Shown: in pieces, positions 17,547-51,608 of the stretch
Layout of the letters: the number at the start of each line of letters is the position of its first letter
Numbering within the stretch: position 1 is the first letter of the stretch
IMG/VR virus record: IMGVR_UViG_3300021061_000004
Location: 1-51,608 of that record
From: a virus
DNA length: 51,608 bases
Reading direction: 5' to 3' (one strand)
Translations under genes and position numbers: made by a program
The notes under the pieces: generated by a model
Told to the model about the DNA's origin: nothing
The model's database searches: none
The model's input: only the letters and a program-made list of their open reading frames with translations

Positions 17547-19049
17547 TTGCAGCAAACGATACGGCTCGACTATGAGCCGCAGAGCCGGCAGAGGCTGCTA
17601 CACGCGTCCCTGGCCCGGCAGATTTTCTATGGGGGTGCTGCGGGAGGCGGGAAGTCGCACAGCCTGAGGTGGGACGCGATAGGCTTCTGCCTCAGCAACC
17701 CCGGGCTGGATGCGTTCATATTCAGGCGGACCCTGCCGGAGCTCGAGGCGAACCACATCCGCAAGATCAAGGCGGAGATCCCCACTGAATTGGGGTCCTA
17801 CAACGACACCAAGAAGCGGTTCGAGTTCTACAACGGGGCCGGGATCAACCTCGCGTACTGCGAAAAAGAGGACGATGTCACCCGGTACCAAGGCGCCGAG
17901 ATTCACTGGCTCGGGATCGATGAGGCGGCACACTTAACGGCGTTCCAGATCAACTATCTGAGAACCCGCGTCCGGTTGGGAAGATACAAACCCGCGGAAG
18001 CCTGCAAGCATCTGCTGCCAAGAGTGGTGCTGTGCTCGAACCCCGGCGGCCCCGGTCATTCGTTCCTGAAAAAAACCATGATCGACCCTGCCCCGGCGGA
18101 GACGCTGTTCTGGGACAAGACGATGTCGGACCCCTCGGATCCTGAATCGAAGGGTTGGGCGACGGTCTATATCCCCGCCCGGATGCAGGACAACAGTTAT
18201 CTGGATAAGGGGTATGCCGGTCAGTTCTCGGGGTTGCCGCCGGAATTGGCGAAGCAGCTACGAGAGGGCGACTGGGACGCGGTGGTTGGGCAGGCTTTGT
18301 TCAACCTGTCCCGCGACAGGCATATGTTGAGGGCTTTTACCCCTCCGAAGCACTGGACACGCTTCATGGTCATCGACTGGGGCGTCGTCCGCCCCTTCTC
18401 GATTGGCTGGTACTGCGTCAGCGAGGGGGTTGAGCTTGCGGCAAAAGGAAATTGGCCGAGCCGCTGGTTACCGGCCGGAGCCCTGATCCGCTACGCCGAA
18501 TGGTACGGCTGGAACGGCCGGCCGAACGAAGGCTTGAGGCTGAGTCCCCAGGAAGTGGGGAAGGGCATCATCAAGCGTGAGCTGGAGCGCATGGGCGAGC
18601 GCATGGACTACCGGGTCGGGGACACGGAGATGTGGGCCGACCGGGGGGGTACATGTGTCGCAGAAACCCTGTTCCAGACCGATCCGCGCCTGGTGATGCG
18701 AAAAGCCAAGAAGGACCGCAAGCGGAACTACAACGAGGTGATCTCAAGGTTAGCGGGCAACGACCGCTATCTCGAAACAGGCGAATCCTTCAACGACCCG
18801 ATGTTCTTTGTCACGGCTGATTGTACCCAGTTCTGGAGAACCTGCCCCACCCTATTGCTCGACGAGATCGATGGCGAGAAGGGGCCGGGGGATAAGCCCT
18901 CGGATGAGAATCACGTTTATGACGAAGTGGCCTATGCCTTGAGATCGAGGCCTTTCGTGACGACCGAAGAAGACCGCTGGCTTGCCGAGAACCATGAAGA
19001 CATGAAGCGCGCCAGGGGGAAGACCGAGGACCCCTACGCCCTGTCATGA
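17547..19049 (+). CDS. terL: Terminase large subunit
   Basis: This is the packaging ATPase and nuclease, 500 residues. Walker A is GGAAGGGKS at residues 29-37 and Walker B is WLGIDEA at 121-127, with E126 catalytic. The C-terminal RNase H-like nuclease begins MVIDWGVVRP near 274, with further acidic residues at GDTEMWAD near 355 and in the DEV segment near 470. An in-frame stop two codons upstream leaves TTG 17547 as the only reasonable start. No good ribosome site is visible, which points to control by the structured leader. Confidence 0.95.
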   Translation: MQQTIRLDYEPQSRQRLLHASLARQIFYGGAAGGGKSHSLRWDAIGFCLSNPGLDAFIFRRTLPELEANHIRKIKAEIPTELGSYNDTKKRFEFYNGAGINLAYCEKEDDVTRYQGAEIHWLGIDEAAHLTAFQINYLRTRVRLGRYKPAEACKHLLPRVVLCSNPGGPGHSFLKKTMIDPAPAETLFWDKTMSDPSDPESKGWATVYIPARMQDNSYLDKGYAGQFSGLPPELAKQLREGDWDAVVGQALFNLSRDRHMLRAFTPPKHWTRFMVIDWGVVRPFSIGWYCVSEGVELAAKGNWPSRWLPAGALIRYAEWYGWNGRPNEGLRLSPQEVGKGIIKRELERMGERMDYRVGDTEMWADRGGTCVAETLFQTDPRLVMRKAKKDRKRNYNEVISRLAGNDRYLETGESFNDPMFFVTADCTQFWRTCPTLLLDEIDGEKGPGDKPSDENHVYDEVAYALRSRPFVTTEEDRWLAENHEDMKRARGKTEDPYALS

Positions 19050-19246
19050 CAACCGCCTGGCGCTGCCCCGTCACCTTTGTCTCCGGGACGGGGACCAGAA
19101 AGCGCGTCTCCTACGTCGTCGCCGCGCCGCACGAATGGGAAGCGCAACGCCTGGCACTGGAATACTTCGCCACGCCGGATGGCGACGGCCGTTCGTTCAC
19201 GCTATGGCCGCGAGTGGAGTTCGATATCCCGGTGTTGCATGACTAG
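19046..19246 (+). CDS. Hypothetical protein, 66 aa
   Basis: ATG overlaps the terL stop. The product (CPVTFVSGTGTRKRVSYVVA, then APHEWEAQRLALEYFA) looks like a small alpha/beta domain. Its end overlaps the start of the first glycosylation gene by eight bases. Unknown function. Confidence 0.68.
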   Translation: MTTAWRCPVTFVSGTGTRKRVSYVVAAPHEWEAQRLALEYFATPDGDGRSFTLWPRVEFDIPVLHD

Positions 19247-19997
19247 CCAACCCTGCTGCTACACCACCGACCACCAGCACTCCAAGGTGATCATGAGTGC
19301 GTTTGCCGAAGGGTGTAAGGGCAGGATCGTCCCTCCTACGCAGCTCCTAGAGGGACCCGCCGCCATGTACGGCATCCTGCGGGGAACGGGGGAAATCCTG
19401 AAGCAATGCGAGTGGGTGCAGCGGGATTTCTTCTACATCGACCACGGGTATTTCAAGCCCGGACATTATGAAGGCTTCTACCGGGTGACGAAGAACGGCC
19501 GGCAGGCCGACCTCCCTGACCAGGGGGAATACGTCTACCCCGAGAACCGCTGGAAAGACCTGAACCTCGGCTTGAGCCCGTGGCGCAAGGACGGCCGGCA
19601 CGTGCTGGTCATCCCGTTGACCGGGGCTATCGCCGGGTTCTACGGCATCAATGCGGATCAGTGGTTGCGGACAGTGACGACGGAGATTAGCCGCAACACC
19701 TCCCGGCCTATCGTGGTCAAGCCCAAGGGAGAGGGGGAGATTTCGGACGCGTTGCGCGATTGCTGGTGCGTCGTCACGCATTCATCGAACAGCGCCGTCG
19801 ATGCGCTGCTGGCGGGGGTTCCGGCCGTGGTGCTGGGCGAGTCGGCGTGCGAGACGGTTTCGTGGGTGTTCGAGGACATCGAAAAACCCTGGTGGCCGCC
19901 GCGCGAGCGCTGGTGCCACGCGCTCGCTTATCACCAGTTTCGCCTCGATGAGATGAGGAACGGGACGGCGTGGAGAATACTGAATGACCGATTCTGA
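19239..19997 (+). CDS. GT-B-like glycosyltransferase-type protein, 252 aa
   Basis: The start at 19239 (MTSQPCCYTTDHQHSKV) excludes an upstream out-of-frame extension. Residues about 66-80 contain FFYIDHGYFKPGHYEGFYRV, and the C-terminal part holds CVVTHSSNSAVDALLAGVPA followed by VVLGESA, the nucleotide-sugar binding pattern of GT-B folds (HSSxSAxxALLxGxPxV). It opens a five-gene block and is followed by overlapping genes of the same block. It likely transfers a sugar; donor and acceptor are unknown. Confidence 0.7.
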   Translation: MTSQPCCYTTDHQHSKVIMSAFAEGCKGRIVPPTQLLEGPAAMYGILRGTGEILKQCEWVQRDFFYIDHGYFKPGHYEGFYRVTKNGRQADLPDQGEYVYPENRWKDLNLGLSPWRKDGRHVLVIPLTGAIAGFYGINADQWLRTVTTEISRNTSRPIVVKPKGEGEISDALRDCWCVVTHSSNSAVDALLAGVPAVVLGESACETVSWVFEDIEKPWWPPRERWCHALAYHQFRLDEMRNGTAWRILNDRF

Positions 19998-20742
19998 GGT
20001 CTTGCCGATCTATATCGGGTGGGACAGTCGCGAACAGGACGCCTACGAGGTCTGCCGCTTCTCGATCATCGACCGCACCAAAGCCTCAACCTATATCCGG
20101 CCCCTGAAGCACCGCACCTTGAGAGCGGAGGGCCTGTTCGACCGACCCTGGAGAGTTGGGGAGACAGGTCAATACGTTGACGAGCGTGATGGAAAGCCAT
20201 TCTCGACCGAGTTCTCCCATTCTCGCTGGCTGACTTACCTGCTGGCGAAGCGCGACGTGCCCTCTGCCAAATGGGCGGCGTTCATGGACTGCGACTTTCT
20301 GTTTCAGGCCAATATCAAGGAATTGTTCGCTCTCGCGGACGAAAGATTTGCGGTGATGTGTGTCAAGCACCGTCACACCCCTACTGACTCTGTAAAGATG
20401 GACGGGGTAGCCCAGACTTCATACCACCGCAAAAACTGGTCGAGCCTCGTGCTGTTCAACCTCCAGCACCCGCTCAACGCCGATCTGACGGTTGACGTGG
20501 TGAACCACAAACCCGGCTCGTGGTTGCATTCCTTCTCCTGGCTGAAGGACGAGGATATCGGAGAGCTACCTCCCGAGTGGAACTGGATACAGGGTGTGTC
20601 ACCGGATGTAACACCCAAGGCGGTCCACTACTCGGAAAAGGCCCCGTGGTTTATCGAGCACGGCGGGCTGTGGGAGCTTGAACGCTCCCGGATGAGAAAC
20701 CCCAGACCCTCAATCTGGGACAGGCTGAAGGAAAGCGCGTGA
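19984..20742 (+). CDS. GT-A/GT8-like glycosyltransferase, 252 aa
   Basis: The product opens LPIYIGWDSREQDAYEVCRF, has the metal-binding D-x-D at D103/D105 (FMDCDFLF), then YHRKNWSSLVLFNLQH and WNWIQGV...AVHYSEKAPWF. This order fits GT-A enzymes of the GT8/LgtC-like group that use UDP-sugars. It overlaps both neighbours, so the block is probably translated as one unit. Confidence 0.8.
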   Translation: MTDSEVLPIYIGWDSREQDAYEVCRFSIIDRTKASTYIRPLKHRTLRAEGLFDRPWRVGETGQYVDERDGKPFSTEFSHSRWLTYLLAKRDVPSAKWAAFMDCDFLFQANIKELFALADERFAVMCVKHRHTPTDSVKMDGVAQTSYHRKNWSSLVLFNLQHPLNADLTVDVVNHKPGSWLHSFSWLKDEDIGELPPEWNWIQGVSPDVTPKAVHYSEKAPWFIEHGGLWELERSRMRNPRPSIWDRLKESA

Positions 20743-21347
20743 AACAGGCCGGCCAGTTCTGGCTTCCCGACGATGACACGCACTTCGCCCCCTTCGCCCT
20801 CGCCGGCACCTATCAGTCTAAACAGCTTGAAGCGGCTCTAAGGCACGTCAAGCGCTTCGGGCTAGCCATCGACATCGGCGCGCATGTCGGGTTCTTCACC
20901 CGCGCGCTGGGCAAGAGATTCGAGAAGGTGGTGGCTTTTGAGCCTCAACCCGAGAACTTCGCCTGCCTGAAGAAGAACCGGCCGGATAACGCCGTCCTGC
21001 ACAACGTCGCGCTCGGCTCACGGCAGTGCTGGGGAGCACTGGACACGCCCAAGGCGGAAAACTCCGGCGCTTGGGAAACGAAAGAAATGAAATACGACAA
21101 CGTCGAGTTAGTCCCCGTCATGCCACTCGACACCTACGACCTCGCCCCGGACTTCGTGAAGATCGACGTTCAGGGCTTCGAGGAACACGTACTTGAGGGC
21201 GGACGGCAGACATTGCTGAAGCACCGCCCCGTGATCCTGATCGAGGAGAACGCGACGAACGTCAACGATGGCGTGCTGATCCTCCAGTCCTGGGGCTGGA
21301 GACGCGCCGACAAGGTGAACCGCGACTGCGTGATGGTGTTTGAATGA
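20739..21347 (+). CDS. FkbM-family methyltransferase, 202 aa
   Basis: A GTG start overlaps the previous stop. The SAM site is IDIGAHVGFFTRAL at about 44-57, followed by KVVAFEPQPENFACLKKN, and the family signature DFVKIDVQGFEEHVLEGG near 137-154. FkbM enzymes O-methylate sugars and other hydroxyl groups. In this block it probably caps a glycan or a hydroxylated product. Confidence 0.9.
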   Translation: MKQAGQFWLPDDDTHFAPFALAGTYQSKQLEAALRHVKRFGLAIDIGAHVGFFTRALGKRFEKVVAFEPQPENFACLKKNRPDNAVLHNVALGSRQCWGALDTPKAENSGAWETKEMKYDNVELVPVMPLDTYDLAPDFVKIDVQGFEEHVLEGGRQTLLKHRPVILIEENATNVNDGVLILQSWGWRRADKVNRDCVMVFE

Positions 21348-22798
21348 CATTCAATCCGATGGCCGGCAAGGCGGTGATGAAAGTCCGCCAGCACATCGAG
21401 GGCCAGGACCTCTCGGTGATCGAGCTTGGCTCGCAGACCCTGACCTTCCAGTTGAAGGACCGCACGTTCAAGGACGTGCCCGACTACTACGATTTCCTCG
21501 GGTTTACCCGCTACGAGTCCATCGACTTCGACGGGAAGGGGACGGTTAGCCTCGATTTGAATCGAACGGTTATCAGTATCCCGAAGGAGATCGAAATTGC
21601 CACCAGCGCTGCGACGACACCGTACCCGCATCTAGAGCCGGCCGACCTCGTCACCAACAACGGAACCGGCGAGCACATCTTCAACCAGGCGGCCATCTTC
21701 GAGACCTGTCACAACCTCTGCAAACGAAGGGGGGTGATCCTGCACGTGCTGCCGTGGATCAACTGGCGGAACCACGGTTTCTACAACTTCAACCCCGTCC
21801 TGTTCTTCGATCTTGCTCACGCCAACGGCTACGAAATCCTTGAGATGTACGCCGGGGATCGGGATGGCAATGTCCTCATCGAAAACATCGACCCGAAAGA
21901 GATCAAAAGACCGGAACCGACCGACAAGAACATCATGCTCGTCTGCGCCCTCAGAAAAACGAGCGACGAAGGATTCAAGGTCCCGGTCCAGGGCAAGTAC
22001 CGCCACCACGCCCCGGCTGACGTGGGAGCAAAACCTGCTGAACCGCTACGGCATAACCCAGGCGTTCGGCTGAAATCCGTTCTTGGCGCCCTTGTTGAAA
22101 GGAGGGACCGTGTCAAGCCATTCCCTTACATTGCTGGCCGGCTTGACCCGGTTTACCTGGAACAGCTTGAAAAGAATTTCCCCGATCCTGCGGACATCAT
22201 CCTCGGCCGACCGGCAAAACAGAACACCCTCTACCAGCGCTCGGCCCGCGAAGTCCTCGGCGACGAATCCACCTCCGCCTTCTGGCGCGAGTTTTTCGAG
22301 CTTCACACCGGGGAGCAGTTCCTCAACGAGCTGTTCCTCATCTTCGCCCCCGAGATCCGTCGTCTCTATCCGCAACTGGGGTCCCTCCCGCTCACCGCCG
22401 GGGTTAGGGGCAGGGATAAGCAACCGTTCCGCCTCGACTGCCAGTTCGCGGTGAATACACCGGTCGAGGAAACCTCATCGGTGAGAGGACCCCACATCGA
22501 TGACCCGAAGGAACTTTATGCGGGCCTGGTTTATCTCGGCGGCGGCGAGCTTGAAATCTATCGCTGGAAGGGTCCGCGCTCGTTTGTCGGCCGCGAGGGC
22601 ATGGTCAAGAAAGCGGAAGCGGAGCCCGGAAGCGTCGAGATCGTCGAGACGATTGAGTGCCTTCCCGGAACCGTTCTGTTCTTCCTCAACACGCCGGACT
22701 CGGTGCACGGGGTCGCTCCTCGACTGAAGGGCGATGGCTACCGGAAATACATCAACATCATCGGGGAGGTTGACTCCCCACTATTTGGGCTGAAATGA
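21344..22798 (+). CDS. Fused methyltransferase-like and 2-oxoglutarate/Fe(II) dioxygenase, 484 aa
   Basis: Residues 1-230 resemble a class I methyltransferase-type domain: NNGTGEHIFNQAAIFETCHN near 104-123, then LHVLPWINWRNHGFYNFNPV and NGYEILEMYAGD. Residues 250-484 form a prolyl-4-hydroxylase-like dioxygenase with the iron triad H384-x-D386 (GPHIDDP) and H455 (SVHGVAP), and R467 (YRKYINI) placed to bind 2-oxoglutarate. The fusion couples hydroxylation with methyl or group transfer. Substrate unknown. Confidence 0.8.
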   Translation: MTFNPMAGKAVMKVRQHIEGQDLSVIELGSQTLTFQLKDRTFKDVPDYYDFLGFTRYESIDFDGKGTVSLDLNRTVISIPKEIEIATSAATTPYPHLEPADLVTNNGTGEHIFNQAAIFETCHNLCKRRGVILHVLPWINWRNHGFYNFNPVLFFDLAHANGYEILEMYAGDRDGNVLIENIDPKEIKRPEPTDKNIMLVCALRKTSDEGFKVPVQGKYRHHAPADVGAKPAEPLRHNPGVRLKSVLGALVERRDRVKPFPYIAGRLDPVYLEQLEKNFPDPADIILGRPAKQNTLYQRSAREVLGDESTSAFWREFFELHTGEQFLNELFLIFAPEIRRLYPQLGSLPLTAGVRGRDKQPFRLDCQFAVNTPVEETSSVRGPHIDDPKELYAGLVYLGGGELEIYRWKGPRSFVGREGMVKKAEAEPGSVEIVETIECLPGTVLFFLNTPDSVHGVAPRLKGDGYRKYINIIGEVDSPLFGLK

Positions 22799-24348
22799 CA
22801 CGCTTTGCCTGCGTCACCACGTTCGGCCGGAAGCACTACGGGCTTTACGGCAGACGCTTCATCGAATCCTACTTGAAGCACTGGCCCGTCTCGATCCCCC
22901 TGTGGGTCTACTACGAGGGGACGAAGCCGGATATCCAGTCCCCGCGCATTACCTATGTCGATCTCGACCAGGACGCGGACCGGCAGAAGTTCATGGACGA
23001 GAAGTTCGACACCTCGTCGGACTACCGCTTCCAGGCCGTGCGCTTCAGCCACAAGGTCTTTGCCCTGACCGATCCCAAGCGGATCGCCAGCAAAGCGGCT
23101 CAGTGGTGGATCTGGCTCGATGCCGACATAGAGACCCACGCCAAGGTGGACGAGGAATTCGTCGAAGCGGTCTGCCCCGAGGGATTCGCGGGCTCCTACC
23201 TCGGTCGCAAGGACTGGCCGCATTCGGAGTGCGGCTTCGTCGGGTTCAATACTCAATACCGGGCGGACGAGTTCCTGGCGAAGTTCAGGAACGCCTATGT
23301 CACGGGCGAAATCTTCAACATGAAGGAGTGGCACGACTCCTACGTGTTCGACCAGCTTCGTGAAGGCTGGTGGCACAACATCAGCGCCGACCTATCCGGG
23401 CTGGAGGTATTCAACCAGTCCATCCTCGGCACAAGGATGCGCCACGACAAGGGGCCGGTCGCCAAGAAGAAGATGAAGCAGAAGCGCCCCGACGGCATGA
23501 AGGGCATCGGGGCCATCGCCCATACCTCCGCTGGAGGGATGGAGATCATGGTCAAGACCAAGAACTGCGTCCCCGAGGTCAACATCCGGGCCAACGTCCA
23601 TTATTCGGCCACGTTGCTCAAGGACTGGCTGGTCGAGTGCAAGATTCACGACGGCATCGCCGTGTTCTGCTCCGGCGGCCCCAGCCTCAAGGACTACTAC
23701 GAGACCATCAAGGAGCTTCAGCAGAAGCCCAACCACTACGTCGTCTGCGTCAAGTCGGCGCATGACGACCTGATTGCCCAGGGAATAATCCCGTGGGCCT
23801 GCGTGCTCCTCGATCCCCGCTCGCACGTCCAGGACTTTATCGAGAACCCCCATCCCGAGGTGCGCTACCTCGTCGCCTCAATGGTCCATCCAACCACGAT
23901 TGACCGCCTCATCGAGAAGAAAGCGAGGGTCTATGGCTACCATGCCCAGGTCGGAGCGGGAGAGCAGGATGTCGTCGCCCAGCGATTGGGCGAGGGGCAT
24001 TTTCTCATTCCCGGCGGCTGCTCGGCGGCCATGCGCGGCATCTCGATCCTGCACGCCATCGGCTTCAGGAAGTTCAAGGGCTACGGCTACGACTGCTCCT
24101 ATCCCGACACGGACAAGATCGACTTCTCGACGCTCGACAAGCGCGGCCAGCCGAAATTCGTCAAGGTCACCATCGACGGCAAGGAATTCGTCACCGACCA
24201 TGAAAAGATCGCCCAGTGCCAGGACATCGCCCGGGTCCTCGACATGCCTTATATGATCGATGTCGAGATGTACGGCCCCGGCATGGTGCCGCATATCTGG
24301 AATTCCCGTGTTCGCAGACGCGCCGAGATGAGCGACGTAGTTGTCTGA
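22795..24348 (+). CDS. Fused GT-A-like domain and DUF115/MAF-like glycosyltransferase domain, 517 aa
   Basis: The N-terminal half has a GT-A-like core with WIWLDADIETH near 105 (D-x-D) and ECGFVGFNTQYRADEF. The C-terminal half begins near 290 with AVFCSGGPSLKDYY, then VVCVKSAHDDLIAQGIIPWA and CVLLDPRSH, the pattern of DUF115 proteins related to motility-associated (MAF) glycosyltransferases. The two-domain order suggests a bifunctional sugar-transfer enzyme. It closes the block just before the portal operon. Confidence 0.78.
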   Translation: MTRFACVTTFGRKHYGLYGRRFIESYLKHWPVSIPLWVYYEGTKPDIQSPRITYVDLDQDADRQKFMDEKFDTSSDYRFQAVRFSHKVFALTDPKRIASKAAQWWIWLDADIETHAKVDEEFVEAVCPEGFAGSYLGRKDWPHSECGFVGFNTQYRADEFLAKFRNAYVTGEIFNMKEWHDSYVFDQLREGWWHNISADLSGLEVFNQSILGTRMRHDKGPVAKKKMKQKRPDGMKGIGAIAHTSAGGMEIMVKTKNCVPEVNIRANVHYSATLLKDWLVECKIHDGIAVFCSGGPSLKDYYETIKELQQKPNHYVVCVKSAHDDLIAQGIIPWACVLLDPRSHVQDFIENPHPEVRYLVASMVHPTTIDRLIEKKARVYGYHAQVGAGEQDVVAQRLGEGHFLIPGGCSAAMRGISILHAIGFRKFKGYGYDCSYPDTDKIDFSTLDKRGQPKFVKVTIDGKEFVTDHEKIAQCQDIARVLDMPYMIDVEMYGPGMVPHIWNSRVRRRAEMSDVVV

Positions 24349-24868
24349 GGACGAGTTCGCCCCAGTCATCTCGAATATTCTGAACCAGTACCCCGCCCTC
24401 TCTGGGCATAACTGGGCCGCTCGTCGCGGTGATGTGTCGCAATACGGCGGCAGCCTTGAATTTTTCAACCCGGACGAGCCGACAAATCCGTACCCCGGCC
24501 GACCCACCATCGAAGTTTACGACAAGAACCTAACGGGCGACGCGCTCCAGCGCGCGGTTTTTGGCGACATGCTGCACTACATGCCGCAGGTCGATCCCAA
24601 GTTCAGGGATTTTCGAGAACAGTTCCGGGGCTCTCTTACGCCAGAGCAGCGCGAATTCGACAGGCGCAAATACAACCAGCTTCACAGCAGCGGCAAGGAA
24701 ACCCGTTCCTACGATGACTGGATGGATAGGTCATGGCTTGACGCATACATCAGAGGCTACCTCGCGCCCGATGAGAGGGACGAGTGGCGCAAGTCCGGGA
24801 CGTACACGGACAAGCAGACATATCTGCTCGAAGCCATGCGCCATTACCTAGCGCAGCCGCGTAAATGA
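24341..24868 (+). CDS. Conserved pre-portal phage protein, 175 aa
   Basis: The TTG start overlaps the previous gene by eight bases. The product has ISNILNQYPALSGHNWAARR, then LEFFNPDEPTNPYPGRPTIE, DMLHYMPQVDPKFRDF and SLTPEQREFDRRKY. The same order is common in proteins next to portal genes of alphaproteobacterial phages. It may be structural or involved in ejection. Role unproven. Confidence 0.7.
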   Translation: MSEDEFAPVISNILNQYPALSGHNWAARRGDVSQYGGSLEFFNPDEPTNPYPGRPTIEVYDKNLTGDALQRAVFGDMLHYMPQVDPKFRDFREQFRGSLTPEQREFDRRKYNQLHSSGKETRSYDDWMDRSWLDAYIRGYLAPDERDEWRKSGTYTDKQTYLLEAMRHYLAQPRK

Positions 24869-26973
24869 GCGACGAATTCCTGCACCCAGAAACACGGAAT
24901 ATCGCGGCAAAGCTCGACGAGAAAGAACTGACCGAGATCGGCAACCGGGTCTACGAGGAGTGGCGGCACGACGAGGAGTCAAGAAAGCAATGGATCGAGA
25001 AGCACGCTTTCTGGCTCAAGATGTATTACCAGGACGACAAGCCGAAGAACCCCCCGTGGGAAGGCTCTTCGAGCGAATCATTACCGCTGCTGGCCGAGGG
25101 CTGCACCCAGTTTGCAGCCAGAGCCTACAAGGCCATGTTCCCCAGCCGGAACTTCATCAAGGCCATCCCGGTTGGCAAGGACGACTCCCATTCGATTGAG
25201 CGGGCCAAGCGCGTGGGCGCGCATATGGCCTGGCAGTGCACCGTCAAGGACAAGCTCTACAAGCGGGGCAAGGACCGCCTTCTGCTCGGCGTTCCCCTCC
25301 ACGGCTCGGTGTTCACCAAGTCGTACTACTGCCCGGCCCGCAAGCGGAACATCGTCGATAACGTCCGCGCCATCGACCTCACGGTTTCCTACGGGGTGGG
25401 TCCCCGTGAATTGGAGGACATAGAGCGCAAGACGCACATCATCCGTATGTCGGTCAACAAGACGCGCATCCTCAAGGAGAAGGGCGTCTTCATCGACGAA
25501 GGCACTCCCGCTGTATGGGATGAGGCCAAGAACAACATCGACCGGGCGCACGACCAGTCGCATGGCCTGACCGAGCCCGGGATGATCGTCTATCAGCCCG
25601 TGGTCCTGCTGGAGCAGCACCGGCTGCTCGATCTGGACGACGATGGAATAGAGGAGCCCTACGTCGTCACGGTTGACGCCGCGACCCGGAAGGTGCTCCG
25701 CATTGTCGTCCGTTACGATACGGATGAGCTGGGTAATCCCACGGCGGACAAGGAGCCAGTCGAGTACTTCACCCACTACCCCTATATGGAGAACCCGGAC
25801 GGGTTCTATGGCCTTGGACTGGGGCATCTGATCTCCCAGCCCAACGCGAGCGTGAACAAGCTTCTCCGCCAGTTCATCGACGCGGCCACGCTGGCCAATG
25901 TCGGCAACAATTCCGGATTCATGTCCCAGCAGCTTGGGGGCATCGAAGGCCGGGAAATCCAGATGAAGCTGGGCCAGTTCGTCAAGGTCCCCGGCTCTGT
26001 GGAAGATTTGCAAAAGGGCATCTGGGTCCCCAAGTATCCCGGCCCCCAGGTCTCGATGCTCCAGGCCATCGAATTGCTCGCGGCCCGCTCCGACCGATTG
26101 GCAACGGTAACCGAGGCGATCACGGGGCAGACCGACAAGGTTGTTCAGCCTACCGCCTTGCTGGCTCTTATCGAGCAGTCGCTACAGGTCTTCTCCTCGG
26201 TCTACGAGCGGATCAACGAGGCGTGGTCGAACGAGCTTTCAAAGCTCTACCGCCTCAACCACAAATTCCTCGACCCGAAGGAATACTTCGCGGTCCTCGA
26301 TGTCGCCGGGGAACTCAAGCAGTTCACCGTCGCGAGAGAGGACTACGCGCCCGACCTTCAGATCCTTCCGGTTGCCGACCCCAAGATGGCGACGGAGCAG
26401 CAGCGGCTTACAAAAGCAAATGCGGAGTGGCAGTTCCTGTCAACCAACCCGCTGGTCCTGAACTCGCCCCAGCACCTCTACAACGCCTCGCGCCGTTACC
26501 TGGAAGCGATGCAGTCGGAGAACATCGACGAAATCCTGCCCAACCCGGGCAATACCATGATGATGCGGATCGACGATCCGGGGATGGAAAATCTACTGGC
26601 GCTCCAGCAGACGCCGATGATGCCGATGGCCTTCCCGGACCAGGACCACCAGATGCACCTCCAACTTCACATGGCGGAGTTGAACAACCCGGTATCGGCG
26701 CTGTCCTCGCTCGGCCGCTCGCTGCTGATGGAGCACGTCAAGGCCCATGCGGTGATGATGTCGGGGGTGATGAACCAAGGGATGCAGATGAATGGACAGG
26801 CAAACGCTCAAGGACTGGCTCCAGGAGCCGACGACCCGGTGGGTGCTGGCCGCCCTGGACCGGAGGTTCCCGGAGCAGGCATGGAAGACGGCAGCTACGC
26901 AGGACAGGCTGAGCAAGGTCCAGGGATGGCGGGAAGTGGCGGACTTTCTCAGGGAGCTGCCCCTCCAGCTTAG
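24865..26973 (+). CDS. Portal protein (P22/T7-like), 702 aa
   Basis: The long product begins with charged helices (MSDEFLHPETRNIAAKLDEK), then WEGSSSESLPLLAEGCTQFA and a helical stem region (LLRQFIDAATLANVGNNSGF). The length and order fit portals of short-tailed phages. The last 60 residues are Gly/Met/Ala-rich. It forms the dodecameric vertex through which DNA is packaged. ATG overlaps the preceding stop. The 3' end is overlapped by another gene in a different phase. Confidence 0.9.
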   Translation: MSDEFLHPETRNIAAKLDEKELTEIGNRVYEEWRHDEESRKQWIEKHAFWLKMYYQDDKPKNPPWEGSSSESLPLLAEGCTQFAARAYKAMFPSRNFIKAIPVGKDDSHSIERAKRVGAHMAWQCTVKDKLYKRGKDRLLLGVPLHGSVFTKSYYCPARKRNIVDNVRAIDLTVSYGVGPRELEDIERKTHIIRMSVNKTRILKEKGVFIDEGTPAVWDEAKNNIDRAHDQSHGLTEPGMIVYQPVVLLEQHRLLDLDDDGIEEPYVVTVDAATRKVLRIVVRYDTDELGNPTADKEPVEYFTHYPYMENPDGFYGLGLGHLISQPNASVNKLLRQFIDAATLANVGNNSGFMSQQLGGIEGREIQMKLGQFVKVPGSVEDLQKGIWVPKYPGPQVSMLQAIELLAARSDRLATVTEAITGQTDKVVQPTALLALIEQSLQVFSSVYERINEAWSNELSKLYRLNHKFLDPKEYFAVLDVAGELKQFTVAREDYAPDLQILPVADPKMATEQQRLTKANAEWQFLSTNPLVLNSPQHLYNASRRYLEAMQSENIDEILPNPGNTMMMRIDDPGMENLLALQQTPMMPMAFPDQDHQMHLQLHMAELNNPVSALSSLGRSLLMEHVKAHAVMMSGVMNQGMQMNGQANAQGLAPGADDPVGAGRPGPEVPGAGMEDGSYAGQAEQGPGMAGSGGLSQGAAPPA

Positions 26974-28495: not shown

Positions 28496-29068
28496 CTAGG
28501 GTCGGCCAAATAGCGTTGGCTTGTAGCCGCTGACGCAGGCGGAATACTCGGCAAGATTTACTGCCTCCATGCGGCGGGCATAAACGGGATCGTGGTTTCG
28601 GAGATACCGGATCTCGGCGTTCGTTGCCTCGATCTCTGTTGACCTTGTACAGACCCAGCCCTTGCGGCTGCGTAATTCGGTGACAGCGGCGGGTCCTGCC
28701 CGCACCGCCGCCATGTAGGTCAGATACTGGCCGTAGTGCACCAGCTCGTGGACGATGGCGGCATTCCATTGTGAGGTGCCGGGCATATAGCGGGTGTGGT
28801 CAAGGTAGACAATCGGTTCGCCGCTGAACGCGGAGAACGATGCCTGGGGCACGTAAGCAAACACACTGGCCGAACCTGACCAGTCTTTCGACATTCTCTC
28901 CCTGTCCACGATGATTCTGGGCAGTGGATCGAGCCTGTAACCCGTCTCGCGCTCGACGAACTCCACGAGCGGCCTGATAGACGACGGGTCGATCTCGTGC
29001 GGCGCTGAAGCCGCACAACCCCCCAGCGAAATTGCCAGAGCCAGGACTAATCCGAGGCGCTTTGCCAT
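28496..29068 (-). CDS. Outer-membrane lipoprotein with HExxH-like site (DUF6647-like), 190 aa
   Basis: The start at 29068 gives MAKRLGLVLALAISLGGCAA, a lipoprotein signal with lipobox LGGC. The mature domain has IVHELVHYGQYL, an HExxH zinc-site (H-E-L-V-H), and DUF6647-like context (PIVYLDHTRYMPGTSQWNAA). It could be a lipoprotein metalloprotease. Orientation is opposite to the structural genes, as expected for lysogenic-conversion cargo expressed from the prophage. TATAAT lies six bases before the ATG. Confidence 0.82.
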   Translation of the reverse strand: MAKRLGLVLALAISLGGCAASAPHEIDPSSIRPLVEFVERETGYRLDPLPRIIVDRERMSKDWSGSASVFAYVPQASFSAFSGEPIVYLDHTRYMPGTSQWNAAIVHELVHYGQYLTYMAAVRAGPAAVTELRSRKGWVCTRSTEIEATNAEIRYLRNHDPVYARRMEAVNLAEYSACVSGYKPTLFGRP

Positions 29069-29074
29069 GCCCGG

Positions 29075-29080
29075 ATTATA
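29075..29080 (-). promoter_or_regulatory. -10 box for the inverted cargo unit
   Basis: The complement of 29075-29080 is a perfect TATAAT, six bases before the lipoprotein ATG. No clear -35 box or ribosome site is seen. Transcription would begin at or next to the ATG, suggesting a leaderless message. Confidence 0.5.
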
Positions 29081-29154
29081 GCCGAATCCCGGCGGAAAAT
29101 CGACGCTTCCGCACGGGTAATCAGCGCGTCGGATCAACAACTTACGAGTGTGTC

Positions 29155-29445
29155 ATGAGCGTTACCCAGGGGTTTCACCCCTTCTGGGCTTTTGTGCTGC
29201 TTGAGCGCGAGTCCATCCAGAAGACCACCTCCCTGATCATTCCCGAGACAGCGGAGAAGCGCAACGCCCCGGCCGAGGGGATCATCATCGCGGTCGGCAA
29301 GACGGCCGATGACGATATCAAGCGCCTCAAGGGCCAGAAGGTGCTGTTCAAGAAGAACAGCGGCGACTGGATCAAGATCGACGGTGTCGAGCGCTTCATC
29401 TGCCACGAGGAGGACATCCTCGGGGCGTGGTGCATCGAATCATGA
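29155..29445 (+). CDS. GroES-like co-chaperonin, 96 aa
   Basis: The product starts MSVTQGFHPFWAFVLLERES and then follows the GroES order: TTSLIIPETAEKRNAPAEGI (mobile loop region), IIAVGK, LKGQKVLFKKNSGDWIKIDG, and a final EEDILGAW matching the GroES 'ESDILA' end. It lies between portal and capsid genes, so it likely swaps for host GroES to let GroEL fold the major capsid protein, as T4 gp31 does. The start at 29155 excludes an unlike N-terminal extension. Confidence 0.85.
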   Translation: MSVTQGFHPFWAFVLLERESIQKTTSLIIPETAEKRNAPAEGIIIAVGKTADDDIKRLKGQKVLFKKNSGDWIKIDGVERFICHEEDILGAWCIES

Positions 29446-31312: not shown

Positions 31313-32209
31313 ATGACAATCGGAACCGGCAACTTCGCCGAACTCCTCTGGCCCGGCATCGCGGACAAGTTCGGCACCAGCTACAACGACTACCCCCCGC
31401 TCTACAAGAAGATCTTCCAGATCAAGCAGTCTGACAAGCGCTTCGAGAAGGAGCAGGGCCTTACCGGCCTGCCCCTGGCCGCGGTGAAGGATGAAGGCAA
31501 GAACGCCTCCTATTCCGACCCGTTCCAGGGCTTCCAGAAGGAATACGTCAACGTGACGTATGCCCTGGGCACGTCGGTGACGCGCGAGATGCACGAGGAT
31601 GATCTCTACAACTACATCAACGATCTTCCGAAGATGCTCGCGCGGTCCATGCACCAGACCGAGGAGACCATCGCGTTCAACCACATCAACAATGCCCAGA
31701 CCTCGGGCATCAATGGTGCGGACGGCGTGACGCTGGCCAGTGCCTCCCACCCGCTGGTTGCGGGCGGGACGTACTCCAACCAGCTCGCCACTCCGGCGGA
31801 CCTGACCAACACCTCGCTGGAGACGGCCACGCAGAACCTGATGGACTTCGTCGATGACCAGGGCCTGAAAATCCGCGTCATGCCGAAGTGCCTCGTCGTG
31901 GCGACGGCCAACAACCACACCGCCGTCAAGCTGCTGGAGACCGACTTCGTGGTCGGCACGGCGGACAACGACAAGAGCGTCATCAAGGGCCTGTTCAAGG
32001 ACCTGGTGGTTTCGCCCTGGCTCACCGATCCGGACGCCTGGTCGATCATCACCGACGTTCCGAACGGTCTGGTCTGGTACGACCGGCGAGCCGCGGAGAT
32101 CGTGCGCGACAACGAGTTCGACACCCAGAACTTGAAGATGCTCACGACCCGCCGGTTCTCGTCCGGCTGGACCGATCCCCGGGGCTTCTACTTCACCCCG
32201 GGCGCGTAA
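31313..32209 (+). CDS. Major capsid protein (HK97-fold, Mu-F-like), 298 aa
   Basis: A strong ribosome site (GAGGAG) precedes ATG 31313. The product has an E-loop-like part (KQSDKRFEKEQGLTGLPLAA), a spine-helix region, the TLASASHPLVAGG motif of Mu-F-like capsids, and RVMPKCLVVATANNHTAV. A hairpin follows the stop. This is the most abundant virion protein by expectation. Confidence 0.9.
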   Translation: MTIGTGNFAELLWPGIADKFGTSYNDYPPLYKKIFQIKQSDKRFEKEQGLTGLPLAAVKDEGKNASYSDPFQGFQKEYVNVTYALGTSVTREMHEDDLYNYINDLPKMLARSMHQTEETIAFNHINNAQTSGINGADGVTLASASHPLVAGGTYSNQLATPADLTNTSLETATQNLMDFVDDQGLKIRVMPKCLVVATANNHTAVKLLETDFVVGTADNDKSVIKGLFKDLVVSPWLTDPDAWSIITDVPNGLVWYDRRAAEIVRDNEFDTQNLKMLTTRRFSSGWTDPRGFYFTPGA

Positions 32210-32260: not shown

Positions 32261-32824
32261 ATGACCACACACGCAGCTCCTTTCAACATCAAGCGGCACC
32301 AGACGGAAACCACCGTCGTGTCGTTCGACGCCTCCGGCTCGGCCTCTTTCGCCCAGGGCCTCAACGTCGGCGGCGTGCTTGTCGCCAACACGGTAGAGGT
32401 CAGCGGCTCGGTTGCGTTCAAGGGACGCATCCAGGCCGGTGCCGACGCCGCGGCCACGCTTAGCGAGGTCTTGTGCGTCAAGCGCGTCACCATCCCGGCC
32501 AACAACACCAAGGTCACGGCGGAAGTGCCGGAGGGTTCGGACATCATCGGCTGCATGGCCTTTGTCCAGACCCCGCCCGGCGGTTCAGCACAATCAACCT
32601 GCCACATCCTGGTCGGCACCTCCGCCCACGATGGGCGGTTGCTGGCCCTGACCAACGTCAGCACCCAGGGCTACTACGACCGCAACACCCTGTCCCAGAC
32701 CTCGGCGTGGTCGAACGTCTCGGGCGTCAACTCGAAGTTCCTCGTCCATACCACGGCGGTCTCTGGTGCCATTGCCTCCGGTACGTCCGGGTTCATCGGC
32801 ATCAAGTACATCCGCAAACAGTGA
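32261..32824 (+). CDS. Virion protein, paralogue of 33520-34296, 187 aa
   Basis: CAGGAG precedes ATG 32261. The beta-rich product has VTIPANNTKVTAEVPEGSDI, GTSAHDGRLLALTNVSTQGY and VHTTAVSGAIASGTSGFIGI. The same blocks occur in the C-terminal half of the 33520-34296 product, so the two genes arose by duplication. Likely an outer-capsid or tail-fibre-like protein. Confidence 0.75.
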   Translation: MTTHAAPFNIKRHQTETTVVSFDASGSASFAQGLNVGGVLVANTVEVSGSVAFKGRIQAGADAAATLSEVLCVKRVTIPANNTKVTAEVPEGSDIIGCMAFVQTPPGGSAQSTCHILVGTSAHDGRLLALTNVSTQGYYDRNTLSQTSAWSNVSGVNSKFLVHTTAVSGAIASGTSGFIGIKYIRKQ

Positions 32825-32833
32825 GCTAGCGCT

Positions 32834-33175
32834 ATGCCTGTGGAAGCAAAGCAGGACGTGGCGGTGTCGGCGCAAGCCGCCACCCCCGTCACCTCTCTCC
32901 CGTGGATTCCCCTGGACATCCATCTGTCCGATTTCCGCGTCGCTTACGTGGGCAAGAAGTCGGCCAGCGGGCAGATCAACTTCAAGGTCCAGGGAACGCT
33001 CGACAACATCCTCGACCCCGCCATCACCAGCGCCGTCACTTTCGACATCACCGCCTCGGCGGCCACCAGCGTCGCCGGCAATACACAGACCCCCATGAGA
33101 GCCATCCGGGTCCAGGTGGTCAGCGCTTCGGCCTCGTCCAATCTCAGCTTCCGCGTGACGCAGGCCGGTACGTGA
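32834..33175 (+). CDS. Small beta-rich virion protein, 113 aa
   Basis: The product (VTSLPWIPLDIHLSDFRVAY, then TSAVTFDITASAATSVAGNT) is rich in Ser, Thr and Ala with alternating hydrophobic residues, typical of structural beta folds. It overlaps the next gene at GTGA. Function unknown. Confidence 0.65.
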   Translation: MPVEAKQDVAVSAQAATPVTSLPWIPLDIHLSDFRVAYVGKKSASGQINFKVQGTLDNILDPAITSAVTFDITASAATSVAGNTQTPMRAIRVQVVSASASSNLSFRVTQAGT

Positions 33176-33519: not shown

Positions 33520-34296
33520 ATTACTGTTCAGACACGCACAGTCAACAAGGCCCGGTTCGAGGACGGCGACAAGCCCACCGGCTCGAACTACGCCGACCTC
33601 ATCGACTCCTTCGTCGCCATCGCCGACACCACCGCCCAGGCGCTGTCGTCCGACCTCTCGGCGATCAAGCTGATCGGGACGACGGAGGTCTCCTCCCCCC
33701 AGGTCAACACCACGGAAGTGTCGGCCTCGGTGGTCAACGCGGCGATAGGCAATATCGACCGGGTGAACGCCGCGACGGTCTCCGCCTCGATTGCCAACAT
33801 CAACACCCTGAATGTGCAGCTTGTCTCCGCCTCGGCCGCCACCGTCAATATCCTGAACGTGCAATCGGTATCCGCCTCCAGCGGGACCTATTCGGGACGG
33901 TTGCGGGTCGGCAGCTCGGCGGCCGATCTTGGGGATACCCTGCTCTGCCGGCAGGTCACCATCCCCGCCAACAATACCAAGGTGGCGGTGACGCCGCTGC
34001 CCAACGGGGCGGATATCGTGGACGTGACGATGTTCGTCCAGAACCCGACCTCCACCTCGGCCCTGTCACAGACCAATATCATCCTGGGCACGTCGGCGCA
34101 TGACGACCGCGTGGCCCGCTTCAACAACGTCTCCGCGCAGGGCTACTACCGGGTTTCAAGCTCGGTCAGGACCTCGGGCTGGCTCTCGGTCTCTGGTGCG
34201 AATGCCCAGCTCTACGTCCATACGACCGCCGCCTCCGGGGCTATCGCCTCCGCCGCCTCGGGGCGTATCCACATCTTCTATGTGAAGCGCCAATAA
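33520..34296 (+). CDS. Virion protein with ATT start, 258 aa
   Basis: The frame opens after the TAA at 33505-33507. AAGGAG at 33506-33511 is eight bases from ATT 33520; no ATG, GTG or TTG is available, so ATT is the start. The first residues (TVQTRTVNKARFEDGDKPTG, then SNYADLIDSFV) match the N-terminus of the 41569-42243 product (GDKPT...ADWIDS). A middle Ser/Ala/Asn repeat region leads to a C-terminal domain paralogous to the 32261-32824 product. Likely a fibre-like or decoration protein. Confidence 0.75.
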   Translation: MTVQTRTVNKARFEDGDKPTGSNYADLIDSFVAIADTTAQALSSDLSAIKLIGTTEVSSPQVNTTEVSASVVNAAIGNIDRVNAATVSASIANINTLNVQLVSASAATVNILNVQSVSASSGTYSGRLRVGSSAADLGDTLLCRQVTIPANNTKVAVTPLPNGADIVDVTMFVQNPTSTSALSQTNIILGTSAHDDRVARFNNVSAQGYYRVSSSVRTSGWLSVSGANAQLYVHTTAASGAIASAASGRIHIFYVKRQ

Positions 34297-43583: not shown

Positions 43584-44624
43584 ATGACCCAGGCCGCCCT
43601 ATCTGACGATGACTGTAGGAAAGCAATCGACGCACTGGAGGCTTGCGAGGGGAACAAGACGGAGGCGGCAAAGCTCCTCGGCCTCAACCGCAAGACCTTC
43701 TGTAGCCGGCTGGTGAACGCGCTGGCGCGAAAGGACTCGCTCAAACCCATCACCCTGCCGGAGTTCCCCGAGGACGATCTACCTGTCCGCGACCTGATCG
43801 AGATCAACAAGAAGAGGTTCGTCAAACGGGAAGCCCACGCCACTGCCCGCAAATGGTTCCCGATCAAGGTCAACGTCGCGGGGCCCATCGGCGTCTCGTT
43901 CTTCGGAGACCCGCACGTCGATAACAACGGCTGCAACTGGCCGCTGCTCGATCATCATTGCGACCTGCACCGGAAGAACGACGCCCTGTTCGCGGTCAAC
44001 ATCGGTGACACCACGGACAACTGGATGGGCCGGCTCCTTCGGCTGGCGGCAAAGTCTGACACCTCGCAGTCCTCCGCCCGCAAGCTCGCCAAGTGGCTGC
44101 TTCTCGATAGCGGTGTGACCTGGCTCGCCAACCTCTTCGGCAACCACGATGACTGGAACGACGGCGCCGCCATCCTTGAGGCGATGGCCGGGCATGTCGT
44201 CCCGATGCACGACTGGCAGGCCCAGTTCAGATTGGTGTTTCCCAAGGGGAGGGAGTGCCGGGTCTGGGCCGCGCACAACTTCGCCGGCCACTCGATGTGG
44301 AACACCCTTCACGGCCCCCAGAAAGCCGCACACACCAAGGACGCGGCGGATATCTATGCGGCCGGGCACACCCATAACTGGGCGGTGCATCAGGAGGAGT
44401 CCGCGTCCAAGGGCTTCGTCTACTGGCTCATCCGCTCGCGCGGCTACAAGTTCATCGACGATCACGCGGAGAAGCTGGGGCACGCCGGTCAGCAGGAAGG
44501 CGCGGCGATCACCGCAATCATCGATCCCGAGGCCAAGAGCATGGCGGGATTCGTCCAGTGCTTTGCCGACATGGACGAGGCGGTGGACTACCTGCGCTTT
44601 CGGCGCAAGCGGGCCAAAGCATGA
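43584..44624 (+). CDS. Metallophosphoesterase with N-terminal HTH, 346 aa
   Basis: Residues 10-45 form a FIS-like HTH (LEACEGNKTEAAKLLGLNRK). The phosphoesterase core is visible as FFGDPHVD (about 109), NIGDTTD, FGNHDDW and later AGHTHNW, the D-x-H / GD / GNHD / GHxH set that binds two metals. The combination suggests a DNA-bound calcineurin-like enzyme. It starts right after the membrane protein gene. Confidence 0.88.
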   Translation: MTQAALSDDDCRKAIDALEACEGNKTEAAKLLGLNRKTFCSRLVNALARKDSLKPITLPEFPEDDLPVRDLIEINKKRFVKREAHATARKWFPIKVNVAGPIGVSFFGDPHVDNNGCNWPLLDHHCDLHRKNDALFAVNIGDTTDNWMGRLLRLAAKSDTSQSSARKLAKWLLLDSGVTWLANLFGNHDDWNDGAAILEAMAGHVVPMHDWQAQFRLVFPKGRECRVWAAHNFAGHSMWNTLHGPQKAAHTKDAADIYAAGHTHNWAVHQEESASKGFVYWLIRSRGYKFIDDHAEKLGHAGQQEGAAITAIIDPEAKSMAGFVQCFADMDEAVDYLRFRRKRAKA

Positions 44625-45064
44625 CCATCATTGCCTACCGCGCCGGCATCCTCGCTGCCGACACTCTGTTCACCGGGGACCGTGGGTTGAAGTCATACGG
44701 GACCAAGGTATTCCAGCTATCGGATGGCCGTATCTGCGGCTTCGCCGGCAACCCGACGAACTTCTACCTGTTCAAGCGGTTCCTCGAAAACGAGGGCGAC
44801 CGCCCGACCTTTGCCGAGAAGGACCGCGAGCGCTTCCATGCCCTCGTCCTCTCCCCGGACGGCAAGCTCGAAGAGTGGGAGGACGAGCGGATATCCGTCC
44901 CCATTGAGGACGAGTTCTATGCCATCGGCTCCGGTGCCGTCGCTGCGACCGCCGCAATGCACATGGGCGCCGACGCCAGACGAGCGGTTGAGATCGCCAT
45001 CCTTTGCGACGAGGGCTGTGGCGGCAGCGTCAAGGCAATCTCAATCCGTGAAGCGCCATCGTAA
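44621..45064 (+). CDS. HslV/proteasome-like Ntn peptidase, 147 aa
   Basis: ATG 44621 overlaps the previous stop; after Met removal Thr2 would be the nucleophile (MTIIAYRAGILAADTLF). The order AADT, ICGFAGNPTNFYLFKRFL, FYAIGSGAVAATAAMHMGAD and AVEIAIL matches HslV (AxDG/T, AGFAG, AIGSGG, A...A). HslU or another unfoldase is not encoded. It may work with a host partner or on virion proteins. Confidence 0.8.
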   Translation: MTIIAYRAGILAADTLFTGDRGLKSYGTKVFQLSDGRICGFAGNPTNFYLFKRFLENEGDRPTFAEKDRERFHALVLSPDGKLEEWEDERISVPIEDEFYAIGSGAVAATAAMHMGADARRAVEIAILCDEGCGGSVKAISIREAPS

Positions 45065-50944: not shown

Positions 50945-51608
50945 GCTTGCCTCCTTCGGAAGGGAGGGCGGAAACGACTTGGCGGGCCTTCCGCGCGGCC
51001 TCACCCATGCGCTTCGAGTGCGACGCCATGAACGCCTTGTCTTCGTCGAGTTGCTTTGCGGTGAGCCCTTCAAACTTGCTGCCGCCCGGATGATTGCAGT
51101 GCATCACCCAGAACTTGTCCTCGGCTTCCTCCAGTTCGGTGACGGCAGCCTCCACCACCACCCTGTACTGCTCGGCCAGGGCTTCGGCGGAATTCAGCCG
51201 TTCAGACAGGGTAAAGGCTTCGCGCGCAATGTTGTGCACCCTGTCTTCGGCAGTTTCGTATCTCGTTTGATTATCCCGCGCCCTCTCCCTCTCCGCCGCT
51301 AGGGCAGCTTCGGCGGCATCTCGTTGCTCGGTCAATCGGCAGATATCCTTGACGCGCTGAACGTCGGCGGCTTCCAGTGCCCCCACCCGTGCGGCGAGCT
51401 TGTCGATCAGGTCGGCGGCTTCGTCTTCTAGTTTGGCCGTCCCGGCGTAGCTAATAGCCGGGGGCGCGTTGCGCCATGCCGCCGCATCAATGCGTAACCG
51501 CTTCACCACCTCCCTCACCGCCTCATCGGCTGGCGGGGTGGGGGTGCGGCGGTCAAAGCCGATGTCAGTAGCGGTGCCGTCCTGCGCCAAGGCGATGTAG
51601 GTCGGCGG
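50937..51608 (-). CDS. Early protein with zinc-like motif and coiled coil, C-terminal part (gene spans the junction)
   Basis: This continues the gene that starts at 646 and leaves the window at base 1; its stop is at 50937. Bases 51482-51608 repeat 1-127. The C-terminal 180 residues are helical and Ala/Glu/Arg-rich (LTEQRDAAEAALAAERERAR, then LNSAEALAEQYRVVVEAAV), probably coiled coil, followed by a Gly/Lys end. Product 396 residues in all. Function unknown. Confidence 0.85.
   Translation of the reverse strand, partial: PPTYIALAQDGTATDIGFDRRTPTPPADEAVREVVKRLRIDAAAWRNAPPAISYAGTAKLEDEAADLIDKLAARVGALEAADVQRVKDICRLTEQRDAAEAALAAERERARDNQTRYETAEDRVHNIAREAFTLSERLNSAEALAEQYRVVVEAAVTELEEAEDKFWVMHCNHPGGSKFEGLTAKQLDEDKAFMASHSKRMGEAARKARQVVSALPSEGGKRG

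Follow-up and report, generated by a model that had tools for sequence, protein, structure and literature searches.

To our knowledge, the decoration of phage particles with sugars has been demonstrated in very few systems. Mycobacteriophage Che8 and its relatives have glycosylated virions (Freeman et al, 2023; as described in PMC12619734 and PMC11256854): these phages encode glycosyltransferases (GTs) and carry sugar on capsid and tail-tube proteins. Here we analyse a block of five overlapping plus-strand open reading frames (ORFs) at positions 19239-24348 of the IMG/VR virus record IMGVR_UViG_3300021061_000004, a 51,608-nt stretch of DNA that was analysed whole and that we call the window. 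The block lies between the genes for the terminase and an SU10-type portal and encodes predicted GTs, methyltransferases (MTs) and a probable Fe(II)/2-oxoglutarate (2OG) dioxygenase. It is one version of a predicted glycan cassette that a clade of tailed phages inherited from its ancestor and has conserved, and we put at roughly 0.55 the probability that this phage-encoded cassette acts late in infection, in the cytoplasm, on a virion protein. As such it would be a version of an already known phenomenon, virus-encoded virion glycosylation, here deduced from genes alone.

The closest described systems each share part of this arrangement. Like the Che8 group, the window phage encodes its own GTs, but the GT genes of Maravista, which belongs to F1 like its relative Che8, lie close to the genome's 3' end rather than between terminase and portal; a dioxygenase, a DUF115 protein and a clade-wide slot for donor synthesis go unreported in the Che8-group accounts consulted. 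Chlorovirus PBCV-1 (A064R, A061L; PMC9614988) also uses virus-encoded, mostly soluble GTs, has fused GT and MT domains and adds terminal methyl caps, and chloroviruses encode a GDP-mannose dehydratase (PMC9614988), to which some relatives of the window phage have a similar gene; PBCV-1 is, however, a giant algal virus with N-glycans on its major capsid protein and an unrelated gene order. Mimivirus L230 (PMC9614988) combines viral hydroxylation and glycosylation for self-modification, but there a GT and a 2OG lysyl hydroxylase form one protein acting on collagen-like sequences, whereas the partner of the 2OG domain in the window protein is an MT. Pelagibacter phage Mosig and Caulobacter phage CcrColossus both encode homologues of the GT8-like and GT-B-like proteins, and Mosig also of the GT-A and FkbM domains; their GT blocks are not between terminase and portal, and their annotations carry no functional description. 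Finally, the GtrA flippase and membrane GTs of Gtr-type seroconversion clusters were not found here.

Domain architecture of the five enzymes

An earlier sequence-only reading of the window had proposed these five genes and their domains, and all five ORFs were confirmed, with no internal stops. The domain calls also held: the FkbM and DUF115 domains outright, the others at the level of the family, with the GT-B call the weakest. The assignments of the GT8, MT, 2OG, GT-A and GT-B domains are weak on single sequences and hold across families.

The first gene (19239-19997) encodes a GT-B-like protein whose family matches DUF6716, a 'putative glycosyltransferase' domain, in 14 of 19 members (best 8e-5), with weak echoes of Capsule_synth; homologues occur in Caulobacter and Pelagibacter phages. 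Its likely start is 19239, since the gene of one relative (L008) begins at that point. The second (19984-20742) encodes a GT8-like protein with an invariant DxD motif (D102, D104). It matches phrog_28018 at 5e-59, a group annotated as of unknown function, and the Pfam GT8 domain PF01501 is matched by 20 of the 22 family members (best 3.8e-8; 0.092 for the window protein). The third (20739-21347) encodes an FkbM-family S-adenosylmethionine (SAM)-dependent MT that clears the curated cut-offs of both TIGR01444 (5.7e-26; 91.7 bits against 37.7) and PF05050 (7.6e-17; 62.4 against 22.7).

The fourth gene (21344-22798) encodes a fusion of a class I MT (residues ~1-225) and an Fe(II)/2OG dioxygenase (~241-484), identified by family matches, invariant residues and structure alignment. 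All six family members match Methyltransf_23 in the first half (best 2.5e-8) and 2OG-FeII_Oxy_3 (PF13640) in the second (best 6e-4), the window protein itself falling below the cut-off for the latter. The iron triad HxD...H and a downstream basic residue (H384, D386, H455, R467) are invariant in all six. In the structure model, which is of low confidence, the C-terminal half aligns with PolD (VIA-align Z 12.2), PasI (11.6) and the prolyl-3-hydroxylase P3H1 (11.3), and the N-terminal half with class I MTs (Z ~12); the MT domain resembles those that act on small molecules. PHROGs and NCBIfam do not cover this fusion, and its coverage in Pfam is weak.

The last gene (22795-24348) encodes a GT-A domain (residues 1-232) fused to a Maf-like DUF115 domain (residues 246-517). 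The former has an invariant DxD (D109/D111) and aligns with the GT6-type enzyme BoGT6a at Z 15 and with glycogenin and GlyE at ~14; the latter exceeds the gathering cut-off of PF01973 (MptE-like/DUF115; 3.4e-16, 59.9 bits against 34.6) and has an invariant LLDPR motif. The structure search barely covered the DUF115 half, and a profile of 26 DUF115 sequences was compared with the PDB; the Magnetospirillum Maf structure 5mu5 came first (2e-5), followed by MptE 8sd5 (0.047). Profiles of the GT-B, GT-A and 2OG families, compared with the PDB in turn, returned nothing useful. Just as Maf enzymes carry a PF01973 domain, so too does this protein, but it departs from their three-domain plan of an N-terminal Rossmann-like domain, PF01973 and a helical C-terminal domain: the N-terminal domain is replaced by GT-A, only ~80 residues follow PF01973 with no evident Maf-type helical domain, and there is no flagellin partner.

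A clade-wide slot with a conserved core

Relatives were retrieved from IMG/VR with a portal profile, blind to the enzymes, yielding 56 loci (designated here by L numbers); a scan with the single portal sequence found no relatives. All open frames were scored with per-domain profiles, and near-duplicates were collapsed to 21 distinct, complete, block-bearing intervals between terminase and portal, which we call slots. The GT8 and DUF115 domains are present in all 21 slots, GT-B in 20 and GT-A in 19; FkbM is found in 5 and the MT/2OG protein in 3. In every slot DUF115 is the last profiled enzyme ahead of the portal. Nine relatives encode GT-A and DUF115 in two separate genes, and the remaining ones in which both were seen have them fused. 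MT and 2OG are fused in all five relatives having both (L008, L022, L024, L026, L029). By these profiles the core is the four transferases, GT-B, GT8, GT-A and DUF115, and the FkbM and MT/2OG genes are exchangeable accessories.

By the portal tree, the block was already present at the root of a clade of 37 rows; phages that fall outside this clade are without it. Two close relatives, L056 and L057, have the portal directly after the terminase; their position in the tree, inside a group of five rows with 100% support and surrounded by phages that have the block, shows this to be a single loss. A recent insertion of the block is unlikely, since the GC content of its genes (57-62%) and their third-position GC (GC3, 0.74-0.86) are in line with those of the flanking genes and the tree shows ancestry. 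Chance is excluded: tens of contigs show the same gene order, with proteins ~20-68% identical to those of the window.

The sequence-only reading knew of no phage module with this exact composition and proposed a search for the five-gene order in other genomes. That order does recur, with inserted genes, in L024 (=L007) and L008, so the set is a variant of the clade-wide slot rather than singular; we likewise found no published description of DUF115 in phages or of such modules, in a search that left out most subscription journals.

The exchangeable part of the slot is largely sugar chemistry. We scanned 53 non-core slot genes, ten of them in detail, and they include a GDP-mannose 4,6-dehydratase-like gene (TIGR01472 4e-112, slightly below the cut-off) and an HldE-type/cytidylyltransferase-like nucleotidyltransferase (8e-23), together with phosphomannomutase (PMM)/HAD hydrolases, NAD epimerases, TylF and further MTs, FAD oxidoreductases and a GT9 match; some HNH endonucleases and one MT-A70 are also present. 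The dehydratase and nucleotidyltransferase co-occur in L042, L046, L049, L050, L054 and L060, joined in L050 and L060 by a HAD/PMM-type hydrolase. By these matches, the slots of these relatives combine a predicted nucleotide-sugar pathway with GTs. No such donor enzyme is encoded in the slot of the window phage, which presumably draws on host nucleotide sugars.

Radical SAM/SPASM enzymes, unusual partners for GTs, also lie inside the glycan slot at L008:5024-5980 and L025:5885-6829, and the slot at L006:869-4153 holds an MT-A70 adenine MT gene with HNH or endonuclease VII-type genes. The viral contig L020:1-14481 carries a GT array together with proteins that by eye resemble a pyridoxal phosphate (PLP) aminotransferase, an asparagine synthetase, a GDP-mannose dehydratase and a sulfotransferase.

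Timing, target and acceptor

Successive block genes overlap by 14, 4, 4 and 4 nt, and every junction from the terminase through the portal overlaps by 4-14 nt. These overlaps leave no space for a terminator or promoter, and promoter-like matches within the block are at chance level; we infer that the block is expressed together with the head genes, late in infection, in keeping with the co-transcription proposed earlier. Maf enzymes O-glycosylate Ser/Thr residues of flagellin (PMC11339370), and do so in the cytoplasm (PMC4065374). The overlap with head genes, the Maf-like DUF115 domain, retention of the block in relatives' records without an integrase and the precedents for virus-encoded coat glycans together argue for cytoplasmic glycosylation of a virion protein. 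The late timing, the site of assembly, the particle-protein acceptor, the linkage and the order of steps are all inferred.

In the mechanism we propose, the four soluble core transferases would assemble a glycan, and the phages of the clade would swap donor-making and tailoring enzymes around that core. In the window phage, the glycan would be built from host nucleotide sugars, and the FkbM and MT/2OG enzymes would cap or oxidise the chain; the fusion may act on a sugar, by hydroxylation and methylation, or it may hydroxylate an amino acid to which sugar is later added. The step that joins sugar to protein is best ascribed, as a candidate, to the DUF115 domain, since among solved structures a Maf enzyme is closest to it. 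The product would be an O-linked, methylated, possibly hydroxylated oligosaccharide placed on a virion protein in the cytoplasm before or during assembly. The interpretation made from sequence therefore points mostly the right way: of the hydroxylation, sugar addition and methylation that it suggested, our analysis supports a predicted glycan assembly with methylation and a probable 2OG oxidation.

The presence of a tyrosine integrase and a repressor-like gene indicates that the window phage is probably temperate, and it raises the idea that the block instead remodels the lipopolysaccharide, capsule or flagellin of an infected or lysogenic host, excluding rival phages or hiding receptors. Such a role would fit the flagellin-modifying relatives of DUF115, as well as the weak likeness of the GT-B family to DUF6716 and Capsule_synth. 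But the block is co-directional and overlapping with terminase and portal, with no internal promoter signal, and it is kept across a diverse clade in which 11 of 12 relatives' records, which may be partial, show no tyrosine integrase. GtrA (PF04138) is found in 0 of 13 records, and the five block proteins have no transmembrane-like stretch (hydropathy maximum <=1.55). We therefore regard host-surface conversion as unlikely, as the sequence-only reading also did.

That reading left the choice between virion and DNA decoration open; our analysis favours a virion protein. If DNA were the target, a base would first gain a hydroxyl or hydroxymethyl group and then a sugar, as protection from host nucleases; T4, RB69 and metavirome clusters for cytosine hypermodification are examples. 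Phage GTs that modify DNA are well known (see PMC12619734), the MT and 2OG dioxygenase fusion superficially resembles a C5-methylase plus TET, and homologous blocks lie near ribonucleotide reductase (RNR) genes in other phages. An exact 127-bp direct repeat at the record ends (1-127 = 51482-51608) indicates that the genome is probably complete, closed at ~51.5 kb (51,481 bp). A thymidylate-synthase-type hydroxymethylase (PF00303) is absent from it and from 12 relatives' records, with controls matched, and no C5 DNA methylase (PF00145) was found in the genome; Tet_JBP (PF12851) gave no match, its positive control being silent too. The likeness of the MT domain to small-molecule MTs, the Maf-like DUF115 and the dehydratase, epimerase and nucleotidyltransferase partners, which suggest an elaborate oligosaccharide, also speak against DNA. 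We consider this explanation improbable and keep it as a rival because the TET control was silent.

The position of the block among head genes had been taken as an argument for late decoration of the virion or of its DNA. The block is indeed locked into the head operon in this clade, but core homologues elsewhere have other neighbours. The GT8 family is widespread, with at least 598 viral loci, and 78 further GT8 loci are accompanied by GT-A in 57, GT-B in 43, DUF115 in 28 and FkbM in 28. GT8, GT-A and DUF115 also occur in the phages L084, L090, L094, L141 and L145; some other core triads adjoin the gene for a large virion structural protein, and in CcrColossus the GT pair comes after tail genes. 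Since core homologues lie near RNR or tail genes in these phages, location alone cannot settle the target. The core genes' RNR neighbours in other lineages also lend something to the idea that the glycosylated protein belongs to the host or to the early phase of phage infection, for instance in counter-defence. Given the head-operon position in this clade and the overlapping reading frames in the window, we find such a non-virion acceptor quite doubtful.

In L085, L104, L116 and L127, GT8 comes with a row of about five to eight GT-B-profile matches, which suggests much longer phage-encoded glycan pathways.

Candidates for the virion protein that would be modified are encoded next to the gene for the major capsid protein (31313-32209). 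The protein encoded at 32261-32824 (plus strand), directly 3' of the capsid gene, is rich in Ser/Thr (21%), as is its paralogue at 33718-34296 (plus strand; 22%), which has N-terminal VSAS-type repeats. Block-bearing relatives in which this interval is covered have at least one ORF of ~19-27% Ser plus Thr in the stretch that separates the capsid gene from the conserved gene following it. In L056 and L057, which have lost the block, the same interval is a 60-bp gap and the Ser/Thr-rich genes are gone too. These proteins are a lead as candidate acceptors, alongside the product of 32834-33175, the major capsid protein and the portal. Ser/Thr content by itself was rejected as an acceptor criterion, since it is not specific.

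Several observations count against glycosylation of a virion protein as we propose it. The acceptor lead comes from a single loss event, and ORFs rich in Ser/Thr follow the capsid gene in block-less phages outside the clade as well. Core genes have RNR neighbours in L084, L090, L141 and L145 (those tested), with ferredoxin in L084, and in Mosig the GT and MT genes lie beside or after RNR and RuvC genes. Among the enzymes themselves, the GT-B call is the weakest, and the structure models were built from only 3-4 sequences, with a mean predicted local distance difference test (pLDDT) score of 56 for the MT/2OG fusion and 62 for the second model.

Flanking genes and implications for the clade

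The left border of the slot is the gene for the terminase large subunit (17547-19049, plus strand; phrog_979 2e-35, PF03237). A 66-aa ORF with no assigned function (19046-19246, plus strand) overlaps it by 4 nt and the GT-B-like gene by 8 nt. Between the DUF115 gene and the portal lies a 175-aa ORF (24341-24868, plus strand), which resembles one at the equivalent position in L034; the portal gene (24865-26973, plus strand; PF23899 2.3e-10, phrog_1216 1.4e-18) is the right border.

Further along, a GroES-like co-chaperonin gene (29155-29445; best PDB match 2e-9) sits between the portal and major capsid genes and is kept in relatives whether or not they carry the block. On the minus strand, opposite to the head genes, 28496-29140 encodes a lipoprotein-like protein with a zinc-protease-like HELVH motif, seen by eye, and is possibly a moron. 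An HslV-like hydrolase reading of 44621-45064 was tried and not confirmed. The sole portal-profile match in a genome scan, a contig of a Myxococcales metagenome-assembled genome, shares its length and match coordinates with an IMG/VR viral contig, so no host was assigned from it.

Taken further, the slot tentatively suggests that uncultured tailed phages, as a whole clade, produce a complex glycan specific to the virus, some members having their own donor pathway and others radical-SAM or 2OG tailoring, and place it on Ser/Thr-rich proteins of the head surface; this possible bacterial-virus counterpart of the capsid glycans of giant algal viruses is a more speculative proposal than the cassette itself. 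That loss of the core is so rare, although relatives swap their tailoring genes, suggests that virion glycans matter to these phages and may be under diversifying selection, with the host surface, grazers or glycan-binding defences as possible selecting agents. The clade would also be a reservoir of glycan-tailoring enzymes, including the fusion of an MT with a 2OG dioxygenase.

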